From NCBI RefSeq assembly GCF_013314895.1, contig NZ_JABTYE010000006.1:1-64000 (forward strand): 64,000 bases of DNA, read 5' to 3'. A model generated the notes under the pieces. The model worked only from the letters and a program-made list of their open reading frames with translations. It was not told where the DNA came from and made no database searches. The stretch is from Cupriavidus gilardii (GTDB taxonomy: Bacteria > Pseudomonadota > Gammaproteobacteria > Burkholderiales > Burkholderiaceae). A program made the position numbers and the translations under genes. Positions 38,973-41,075 of the stretch are shown here, piece by piece. Position 1 is the stretch's first letter. Every line of letters begins with the position of its first letter.

Positions 38973-39629
38973 ATGACCGCCATGCCCGCCACCGCCAAGC
39001 CAAAGCAAGCCGCACCGGCGCCCGACACGCCGCTGCCGCGCTGCGGCTGGTGCGGCACGCTTGAGGACTATTGCCACTATCACGACAACGAGTGGGGCTA
39101 CCCGGTCGACGACGACCGCCGCCTGTTCGAGAAGCTGTGCCTCGAAGGCTTCCAGGCCGGCCTGAGCTGGCTGACGATCCTGCGCAAGCGCGAGGCTTTC
39201 CGCAAGGCGTTCGCCAACTTCGACGTCGAGAAGGTGGCGCGCTTCGGCGAGCGCGACATCGAGCGCCTGCTGGGCGATGCCGGCATCGTGCGCCATCGCG
39301 GCAAGATCGAGGCGGCGATCAACAACGCCCAGCGCGCGCTCGAACTGCTGGAGACGGAATCCTCGCTGGCCGCCTATCTGTGGCGTTACGAGCCCGATCC
39401 CAGGAGCCGGCCCGCGGTGCTGACGCCCGAAGTGCTGCGCACGATGACCACCTGCCCGGAGGCCACCGCGCTGTCCAAGGACCTGAAGAAGCGAGGCTGG
39501 CGCTTCGTCGGGCCGACGACGATGTATGCGCTGATGCAGGCGATGGGCATGGTCAACGACCACCAGCACGGCTGCTGGGCCCGTGAGGAAGCGCAGCGTC
39601 GACGCGCGGCGTTCAAGGTGCCCCGCTAA
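38973..39629 (+). CDS. DNA-3-methyladenine glycosylase I
   Basis: A 218-residue Tag protein that removes 3-methyladenine from alkylated DNA. RCGWCGTLEDYCHYHDNEWGYP carries the zinc-snap cysteine and histidine, followed by EKLCLEGFQAGLSWLTILRKREAFR; the C-terminus HQHGCWAREEA completes the zinc site. The first about 20 residues are a Pro/Ala/Lys linker. ATG at 38973 follows GGAGACACG. The gene ends just before the origin-like intergenic region. Confidence 0.94.
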   Translation: MTAMPATAKPKQAAPAPDTPLPRCGWCGTLEDYCHYHDNEWGYPVDDDRRLFEKLCLEGFQAGLSWLTILRKREAFRKAFANFDVEKVARFGERDIERLLGDAGIVRHRGKIEAAINNAQRALELLETESSLAAYLWRYEPDPRSRPAVLTPEVLRTMTTCPEATALSKDLKKRGWRFVGPTTMYALMQAMGMVNDHQHGCWAREEAQRRRAAFKVPR

Positions 39630-39702
39630 CACAAGCGGCGAACGGGCAATCGGGCAATCCGGCAAGCGGGCATGTGGGCGTGGCGCGGTGTGCGGTGTGC
39701 GG

Positions 39703-39750
39703 TACGTGCGCGTGTTACGTGCGCGTGTTACGTGCGCGTGTTACGTGCGT
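39703..39750. repeat. 13-bp tandem repeat, 3.7 copies
   Basis: The unit TACGTGCGCGTGT is repeated perfectly at 39703-39715, 39716-39728 and 39729-39741, and partly at 39742-39750. It lies 45 bases left of the AT-rich origin-like element in the tag/DUF808 gap. It could be a slipped-strand repeat or part of that element. Confidence 0.9.
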
Positions 39751-39795
39751 AAACTCACGCCCAGGTCCCGCTCGACGCAACGGTTGCCTATCGTC

Positions 39796-40077
39796 TTTAA
39801 AGATTGTTTACGTATACGTAGATAGTAGTAGTAGGTAAACGGCGTCCGCGGCAGTGGATAAGGGCGCCGCGCCCTTGCGGCACAAGCCCTGGCGGACGGG
39901 ATAAGCCCTAGGGGAAAACCCGACGTATACGGGATAACCCGATGCCTTCCGGTAAACGGGTTCGATACGCGCCCGACTTGTTCGTCCGCGGTCCACAGGC
40001 GCCCCACACGCTGCCCAGCGCTTGTCCCTTGTGCCACGCACAGGACGGGCACAGGGTTGTCCCCGGAGTTATCCCCA
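39796..40077. other. Origin-like element: DnaA-type boxes, CTA trios and AT-rich tract
   Basis: In a 483-base gap between convergent genes, the minus strand reads: DnaA-like box TTATCCACT (39861-39853), a GC-rich spacer, GTTTAC, four CTA trinucleotides (39834-39823), then an AT-rich tract with TTTAAAG and the palindrome ACGTATACGT (39796-39820). Box, GC-rich, trio, AT-rich is the order of the bacterial basal origin unwinding system. Further TTATCC-type boxes are TTATCCCGT twice (39896-39904 and 39929-39937, minus) and TTATCCCCA (40069-40077, plus). GTAAAC occurs at 39749, 39835 and 39952. No dnaA, dnaN, parAB or repA is in the window. It may be oriC, a degenerate copy, or another DnaA-binding locus. 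Confidence 0.45.
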
Positions 40078-40112
40078 ACCGCAGGTTGCGGTTGCGAGCG
40101 TCCCTGCCAGAA

Positions 40113-41075
40113 TCAGTGCGAACTCGGCCGCAACGCCCGCCGGCCGCGCTGCACCAGCATCACGCCGGCCAGCACGATGGCCCCGGCGATCACGCCACCG
40201 ACCAGATTGATCAGCAATGGCCCAAGCCAGGACAGGAAGGGACCGACGCCCGGCATCCCTCCGAGCCATTGCGCGGCGCTCTCCTCCAGATGGTGCGCCC
40301 ACGGCAGACCGTGGACCAGGATGCCGCCGCCGACCAGGAACATCGCGACGGTGCCCGCCACCGACAGCGTCTTCATCAGCATCGGGGCCAGCCGCAGCAG
40401 GCCGTCGCCGATGCGGCGGGCGAAGCCGTTGGCGCGGCCGCTCAGATAGAGCCCCGCATCGTCGAGCTTGACGATGCCGGCCACCAGCCCGTAGACGCCC
40501 ACCGTCATCAGCAGCGCGATCGCGGTCAGCACGGCCAGCCGGGTGCCGAACGGCGCGTTGGCCACCGTGCCCAGCGAGATCACGATGATTTCGGCCGACA
40601 GGATGAAGTCGGTACGGACCGCGCCCTTGATCTTGTCCTTCTCCAGCGCGACCAGATCGACCGCGGGATTGGAGGCGGCCTGCCGCAACGCGACGCGCTC
40701 GACTGCCTCCCTGGCCCGCTCGGTCGGCTCGGCATGGGCGGGCAGGAAGCGGTGCGCGAGCTTCTCGAAGCCCTCGTAGCAGAGAAACGCGCCGCCGATC
40801 ATCAGCAGCGGCGTCACCGCCCATGGAGCGAAGGCGCTGATCGCCAGCGCCGCCGGCACCAGGATCACCTTGTTGCGCAGCGAACCGAGCGCCACCGCCC
40901 ACACCACCGGCAGCTCGCGCTCCGCCTTCAGGCCGGTGACCTGCTGCGCGTTCAGCGCAAGGTCGTCGCCGAGCACGCCGGCGGTCTTGCGCGCGGCGAC
41001 CTTGCTCATGGTGGCGACGTCGTCGAGGATCGTCGAAATATCGTCGAGCAGCGCAAGCAGGCTGGCACCGGCCAT
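40113..41075 (-). CDS. DUF808 (YedI-like) membrane protein
   Basis: A 320-residue inner-membrane protein of the DUF808/YedI family, beginning MAGASLLALLDDISTILDDV, with KVAARKTAGVLGDDLALNAQQV, LRNKVILVPAALAISAFAP and PLLMIGGAFLCYEGFEK as family landmarks and about six to eight hydrophobic segments. Function unknown. GGGGAGG lies just upstream of the ATG at 41075, which decides this start over longer possibilities. Ends 35 bases from the origin-like boxes. Confidence 0.88.
   Translation of the reverse strand: MAGASLLALLDDISTILDDVATMSKVAARKTAGVLGDDLALNAQQVTGLKAERELPVVWAVALGSLRNKVILVPAALAISAFAPWAVTPLLMIGGAFLCYEGFEKLAHRFLPAHAEPTERAREAVERVALRQAASNPAVDLVALEKDKIKGAVRTDFILSAEIIVISLGTVANAPFGTRLAVLTAIALLMTVGVYGLVAGIVKLDDAGLYLSGRANGFARRIGDGLLRLAPMLMKTLSVAGTVAMFLVGGGILVHGLPWAHHLEESAAQWLGGMPGVGPFLSWLGPLLINLVGGVIAGAIVLAGVMLVQRGRRALRPSSH

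Follow-up and report, generated by a model that had tools for sequence, protein, structure and literature searches.

A second copy of the oriC-type module in an intergenic gap of Cupriavidus gilardii

An intergenic gap of Cupriavidus gilardii contains a module of about 110 nt that it shares with the likely replication origin (oriC) of chromosome 1. This oriC-type module is almost certainly under selection. The gap element appears to be a vertically inherited second copy of the oriC unwinding core; that it serves mainly for initiation control is a reading for which the case is evenly balanced. A second origin core was unexpected, since one origin per chromosome is the accepted picture for bacteria.

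The gap and its origin-type parts

Contig C56 (278,935 bases), from a genome of 5.54 Mb in 60 contigs, begins with the 64 kb of the window, which is the whole stretch of DNA analysed here. As originally predicted, two convergent genes, tag and a gene of the DUF808 family, are separated by 483 nt (39630-40112). The predicted minus-strand order, in which a DnaA box is followed by an 18-base spacer, a run of four CTA triplets and AT-rich DNA, could be read and counted directly in the sequence (Table 1). The repeated motifs reported with it were also located, GTAAAC at four sites (39749, 39806 on the minus strand, 39835 and 39952) and ACGTATACG at three (39810, 39811 on the minus strand, and 39923). 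Three further boxes of the TTATCC type are indeed present, and four of the five TTATCC hexamers of the whole 64-kb window fall at the gap locus, which is more than chance would give. However, the two TTATCCCGT sites, which are both on the minus strand and absent from the rest of the window, have three mismatches to TTATCCACA over nine positions and can at most count as weak boxes. A distance of no more than one mismatch to TTATCCACA is seen for TTATCCACT and TTATCCCCA alone, and the 600 nt around the window's own copy contain no exact and two near-consensus DnaA boxes. The adjacent 13-bp tandem repeat does exist, but lies outside the conserved module.

Table 1. Features of the gap and of its neighbourhood (positions in the window)
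Feature	Position	Strand	Remark
tag	38973..39629	+	neighbour gene; methyladenine glycosylase, PF03352
13-bp tandem repeat	39703..39749		3.6 copies, 100% match
Whole origin-type module	39782..39894	-	match to profile R1
AT-rich tract	about 39792..39822	-	presumed unwinding stretch; contains GTATAC (39812) and GTTTAC/GTAAAC (39806)
Module part matched by oriC-only profile R2	39797-39887	-	
(CTA)4	39823..39834	-	four DnaA-trio type triplets, 3'-GAT-5' on the opposite strand
18-nt spacer	39835..39852	-	12 variable nt, then conserved GTTTAC next to the triplets
DnaA box TTATCCACT	39853..39861	-	one mismatch to TTATCCACA
TTATCCCGT	39896..39904	-	weak box-like site
GTATAC	39925..39930		second site in the gap
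TTATCCCGT	39929..39937	-	weak box-like site
TTATCCCCA	40069..40077	+	near-consensus DnaA box
DUF808 family gene	40113..41075	-	neighbour gene; PF05661

On the 279-kb contig, CTACTACTACTA has two sites, one at the gap locus and one at oriC. GTATAC is nearly confined to the same two origin-type loci (12 of its 15 sites on the contig), with two sites in the gap and 10 at oriC (180278-181113). In the stretches scanned around the gap, neither intrinsic terminators nor sigma-70 promoters were found, and no Rfam RNA family matched at E<=1. A terminator, a sigma-70 promoter and a known RNA family were thus all rejected as explanations of the gap.

Position of the main origin

A profile, R1, was built from 29 copies of both kinds, which match it by construction. 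Its other match in the genome, C56:180,576-180,688, lies beside a gene for HU (PF00216), 141 kb from the gap element, and this HU-side copy is the likely oriC of chromosome 1. The gene dnaA was observed on a different contig, C16; separately, a 246-aa frame, possibly Hda, gives a weak match to the DnaA ATPase family at C1:212726-213145 (L002). The cumulative GC skew of C56 stands at -443 at 39.8 kb and has reached -2157 by 180.6 kb; its lowest value, -2285, comes at 194.1 kb, and at the end of the contig it is -1920. It falls by 11.1 per kb to the left of the element and by 12.2 per kb between the element and oriC, then rises beyond oriC; the trend is thus alike on both sides of the gap element and reverses near the HU-side copy. 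The chromosomal origin away from dnaA, which had been one proposal for the gap, does therefore exist, but beside the HU gene. The gap itself loses support in this role, with a skew that falls on through it and fewer consensus boxes. The skew check that had been called for, once run, placed the switch near the HU-side copy and not at the gap, and the richer cluster of DnaA boxes is likewise at the HU-side copy.

The skew places oriC only roughly, since the minima lie off the oriC copies in all three stretches considered. The exact minimum of C56 (194,094) is 13 kb past the HU-side copy. In a 430-kb stretch of genome G008 the minimum is at 315,367, with oriC at 187,479 and dnaA at 291,115, 104 kb from the HU-side copy; the steady fall stops there 12 kb beyond the HU-side copy, at about 200 kb, and a deeper dip follows later, near dnaA. 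In a 288-kb stretch of the Ralstonia genome G207, minimum and oriC are at 3,571,391 and 3,515,918, respectively. No reversal of the skew occurs at the element in C56 or G008, where the 10-kb bin just to its left (30-40 kb) is slightly positive (+0.013 and +0.014, respectively). Slightly positive values were also obtained in four of the five 10-kb bins around the left copy of G207 (3342-3392 kb), a weak signal that a part-used origin could also give.

For C. metallidurans CH34, a skew transition has been reported at about 3,837,500, some 90 kb from dnaA, with three perfect DnaA boxes just before it (PMC2864759). The oriC-type copy of CH34 (G049) found by the R1 search is at 3,835,881-3,835,986. 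That the gap element could be the main chromosomal origin, as its order of box, spacer, trio and AT-rich tract might suggest, is therefore hardly credible: the HU-side copy has more consensus boxes, adjoins the skew switch, matches the CH34 region named in PMC2864759 and scores far better with an oriC profile (R2, see below), a difference that arises partly by construction because R2 was trained on HU-side copies. Of the three readings first offered, the main origin thus falls away; a second origin and a titration or regulatory locus both survive, with the element now recognised as a genuine second copy of the core of oriC.

Conservation and distribution of the module

In the aligned copies, the module runs in the order YAANNNNYTGA, TTATCCAC, a variable stretch, GTTTAC, CTA triplets, GTATAC and GTAAAC. 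YAANNNNYTGA is taken here to be an IHF-like site, and the Ralstonia copies carry GTTAT where Cupriavidus has GTTTAC. To avoid circularity, the profile R2 was made from 13 oriC copies only. In the genome of the window it matches oriC (E 4.4e-24) and the gap element (E 6.6e-9), and nothing else at E<=1, so that the latter is recognised as an oriC core sequence module on the basis of oriC copies. Over 12 whole genomes, R2 detects a second copy in nine of 10 Cupriavidus (E 5.1e-13 to 6.6e-9), the exception being G001, and two further copies in both Ralstonia; the only remaining matches have E values of 0.126 and 0.569. Chance is excluded by the E values of R1 and R2.

With R1, the search among relatives that had been suggested found two strong copies in 56 of 60 Cupriavidus genomes. 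In C. necator N-1 (G050:C3), these two copies are at 3,650,371-3,650,482 and 3,793,317-3,793,427. All strong matches have E<=1.4e-15, the only others in these 60 genomes being at E 0.004 and 0.009, and a third strong copy of the Ralstonia type was found in none of them. A single strong copy was detected in G001, G016 and G046; G012, whose genome is 54% complete, yielded none. In the first three, tag is present and no module appears at E<=1 in the 3-kb tag loci, which indicates that the module is dispensable in some lineages. Pairs located on the same contig are divergent in 31 of 31 cases and 134.6-219.8 kb apart (median 145.2 kb), leaving out G061, whose pair spans contig ends. These copy and pair counts come from profile matches alone, flanking genes apart. 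As for the latter, 31 of the 32 distinct non-HU copies of Cupriavidus have tag no more than 1.5 kb away. The trio and box pattern is found in 57 of the 60 genomes, in some through oriC only, and the backwards pattern in none of the 60. The closest match to the gap among relatives is in G020 (87% over 334 nt); beyond the core, little of the gap can be aligned across most of Cupriavidus.

Conservation was assessed on 24 distinct element copies and 11 oriC copies, a full CTACTACTACTAT run being required for inclusion. The box core TTATCCAC is identical in all 24 element copies carrying this run, and the distance from box to triplets is constant in the 24 element and the 11 oriC copies. In comparison, the mean column identity is 0.60 over 12 spacer positions, as against 1.0 in the box. 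A constant box core and spacing beside a diverged spacer and an unalignable gap argue for selection. Triplet runs of a non-standard kind are seen in G045, with one CTA fewer, and in G049 and G006, with a ATTACTACTA-type run.

The element and the HU-side oriC share the DnaA box, GTTTAC, CTA triplets, GTATAC and GTAAAC, in equal order and spacing. They differ in that the Cupriavidus element lies 135-220 kb off and has fewer consensus boxes. Exact consensus boxes number 0.23 per 600 nt over 31 elements, 1.91 over 11 oriC copies and 0.0025 in random C56 stretches, and near-consensus boxes one to three per 600 nt over the 31 element copies. The box itself ends in CG in 22 of the 24 element copies and in CT in the other two, whereas the oriC box ends in CA; after the triplets, most element copies have GTATACGTAAACAAT where oriC has GTATACAT-AAAG. 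The YAAN4YTGA motif was found in 28 of 31 distinct element copies, in 11 of 11 oriC copies and in 34 of 2000 random 140-nt windows, and its stricter version ending in TTGAT(A/T) in 1/31, 4/11 and 0/2000, respectively. The window's own copy is without this IHF-like motif. A strict concerted evolution of both copies, with GTTTAC or GTTAT throughout a genus, was considered and dropped: oriC reads CTATCACTACTAT in some clades, while the element keeps its own form.

Among 16 Ralstonia genomes, 14 have three strong R1 copies and two (G213 and G225) have two. All three lie on one contig in six genomes (G098, G139, G157, G187, G194 and G207). In these six, one copy is 127-152 kb from the HU-side copy and another 23-32 kb from it on the other side, and both extra copies point away from it. 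In G207, the one Ralstonia genome checked for synteny, the far copy falls within the interval syntenic to that of the gap element: C56 31-38 kb corresponds to 3346-3356 kb and C56 from 55 kb onward to 3389 kb onward, and the interval contains a single module in both genomes. This synteny indicates that the element is old. A duplicated oriC core, older than the split between Cupriavidus and Ralstonia and kept by selection, would be the simplest account of these sequences. The immediate neighbours of the Ralstonia far copy are different (GGDEF and LysR genes), and the Ralstonia tag is on another contig. At five Ralstonia loci (L128, L131, L136, L138 and L139), the module 23-32 kb from oriC was noted with two tandem DnaA boxes before the triplets; the second box of the Ralstonia copies is TTATCCACC, adjoining the triplets.

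It might still be argued that the element is what decay has left of an earlier duplication of the origin, or that it arose by chance. It is absent from three Cupriavidus genomes, and the window's own copy ranks last among the nine second copies to which R2 was applied. Against this stand the box core and spacing, which persisted throughout the genus even as the spacer and the greater part of the gap changed, and the syntenic counterpart in Ralstonia, so that such an origin of the element is very unlikely.

Weaker R1 matches extend to other Burkholderiaceae, with matches in at least 81 of 100 genomes and at least 18 of 25 genera, Cupriavidus and Ralstonia included. In all five Burkholderia-like genomes whose sequences were inspected (G090, G137, G146, G153 and G166; loci L265-L269), two modules face one another at a distance of about 3 kb, with genes of the GCS2 and Na/H-exchanger families between them in G166. 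The gene dnaA is 39-84 kb from the facing modules in four of the five, and on another contig in G090. These facing pairs look like a bipartite origin away from dnaA. A general rule that modules point away from oriC was rejected, since it holds in the 31 Cupriavidus pairs and the six Ralstonia genomes but fails for distal matches in G137 and G153. The exact trio and box pattern was also seen in two metagenome-assembled genomes of Limnohabitans (L298 and L322).

Known DnaA sites and possible roles of the element

The basal origin unwinding system (BUS) of B. subtilis and other bacteria is recognised by a DnaA box with three or more DnaA-trio triplets next to it (PMC8287927). The element has the same succession of DnaA box and DnaA-trio triplets, with four CTA. 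It differs by its location outside oriC and by its 18-nt spacer, counted from TTATCCACT to the first CTA, the published search program allowing 16 nt at most as described in PMC8287927. The B. subtilis BUS has two tandem boxes, as do the Ralstonia copies, whereas a single recognisable box precedes the triplets in the window's own copy. The E. coli datA locus, which promotes the hydrolysis of ATP bound to DnaA, combines DnaA boxes with an IHF site, and most element copies have a box with what may be an IHF-like site; datA is likewise chromosomal and apart from oriC; minimal datA, as outlined in PMC10380432, consists of one IHF site and four boxes, three of them essential, without an unwinding element. 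DARS1 and DARS2, at which ADP is released from DnaA, are similarly clusters of DnaA boxes on the E. coli chromosome that act on DnaA away from oriC, and their three-box core is presented in the same source without a trio or an AT-rich opening part (PMC10380432). The order of box, IHF site and unwinding element at E. coli oriC, given here partly after PMC10380432, is similar to that of the module. Since datA and DARS have no unwinding part, the triplets and AT-rich tract kept in the element favour opening, and perhaps an origin. In the bipartite origins of H. pylori and B. subtilis, an origin comprises more than one region bound by DnaA, and its parts lie on either side of dnaA at a distance of a few kb; in contrast, the Cupriavidus copies are separated by about 145 kb and do not adjoin dnaA.

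On the element's side of oriC in CH34, a cluster of four DnaA boxes has been described at 3,707,588-3,707,653 (PMC2864759). Its identity with the element was rejected, the CH34 copy being 24 kb away at 3,683,254-3,683,363, and a scan of CH34 from 3,706,000 to 3,709,500 found no TACTACTA. No account of the gap element was found in the literature, as far as open-licence papers are concerned.

By analogy with oriC, the element is probably opened by DnaA. DnaA-ATP would bind its box, a DnaA oligomer would extend over the spacer onto the triplet strand, and the AT-rich DNA would be opened as at oriC. That its main use is in control and not in routine initiation is less sure than the opening itself, with arguments of comparable weight on either side. 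The unchanged trend of the skew, the few consensus boxes and a box mostly ending in CG argue against routine firing. Together with the opening parts that were kept, these signs favour, on nearly level terms, an origin mimic that gathers DnaA after initiation. The element would be copied soon after each initiation at oriC, and the freshly copied element would gather DnaA and turn it over, helping to limit initiation to once per cycle.

The main rival to such a control site is a little-used origin, by which the element would be a second initiation-competent origin firing rarely or only under stress, on a multi-origin chromosome. This is possible but clearly less probable. The whole opening module was kept at the spacing of oriC, which goes beyond mere DnaA boxes; the six single-contig Ralstonia genomes have three modules, one of them only 23-32 kb from oriC, and more distant Burkholderiaceae have several weaker copies. 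The lack of a skew reversal at the element in C56 and G008 points the other way, as do the scarcity of consensus boxes relative to oriC and the box ending, which is never the CA of oriC in the 24 copies. Clear roof profiles were moreover reported for all chromosomes measured, C. necator N-1 included (PMC13342612), a statement that leaves room for a small shoulder at 145 kb in N-1. Sequence alone does not tell whether the locus is a second origin under DnaA control or a site of DnaA titration or regulation.

A role as a timer similar to crtS, the copying of the element on chromosome 1 triggering the secondary chromosome, seems improbable. Like the element, crtS of Vibrio cholerae, to which the initiator of the secondary chromosome binds, is a conserved site of chromosome 1 apart from ori1 (in part after PMC13342612), but no common sequence logic was found between them. 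Cupriavidus does have a chromid. Delayed chromid initiation with synchronous termination is the dominant pattern in a 2026 study, which also describes how the Chr2 origin of C. necator contacts Chr1 widely, and which calls for further timers (PMC13342612); both the delay and the contacts would suit a timer. However, a 17-nt repeat put forward for CH34 as the RepA site of its chromid (PMC2864759) is absent from the element, its best matches having four mismatches in the CH34 element and six in the gap of the window, as compared with four to seven in 20 random C56 stretches. Neither profile matched another large replicon in the genomes with separate replicons.

A complete opening module remote from oriC, stable in distance and orientation throughout a genus and present in its sister genus as well, is at odds with the view of a single oriC served by regulators made of boxes only. 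Should the element work on DnaA, control would be exerted by a mimic of the origin itself; should it fire, natural bacterial chromosomes with several DnaA-type origins would exist. A broader and rather doubtful extension is that the primary chromosomes of Burkholderiaceae are multi-module replicons, in which the modules of a chromosome (two in Cupriavidus, three in Ralstonia), spaced at 23-220 kb and each directed away from the main origin, would all be opened by DnaA, each being either capable of a start or licensed to stay dormant. This would amount to a conserved multi-origin bacterial chromosome. Such copies may also be picked by origin-prediction programs, which calls for caution. The finding makes testable the question of what keeps DnaA from initiating at a look-alike of the origin core, and of what the cell gains from keeping one.
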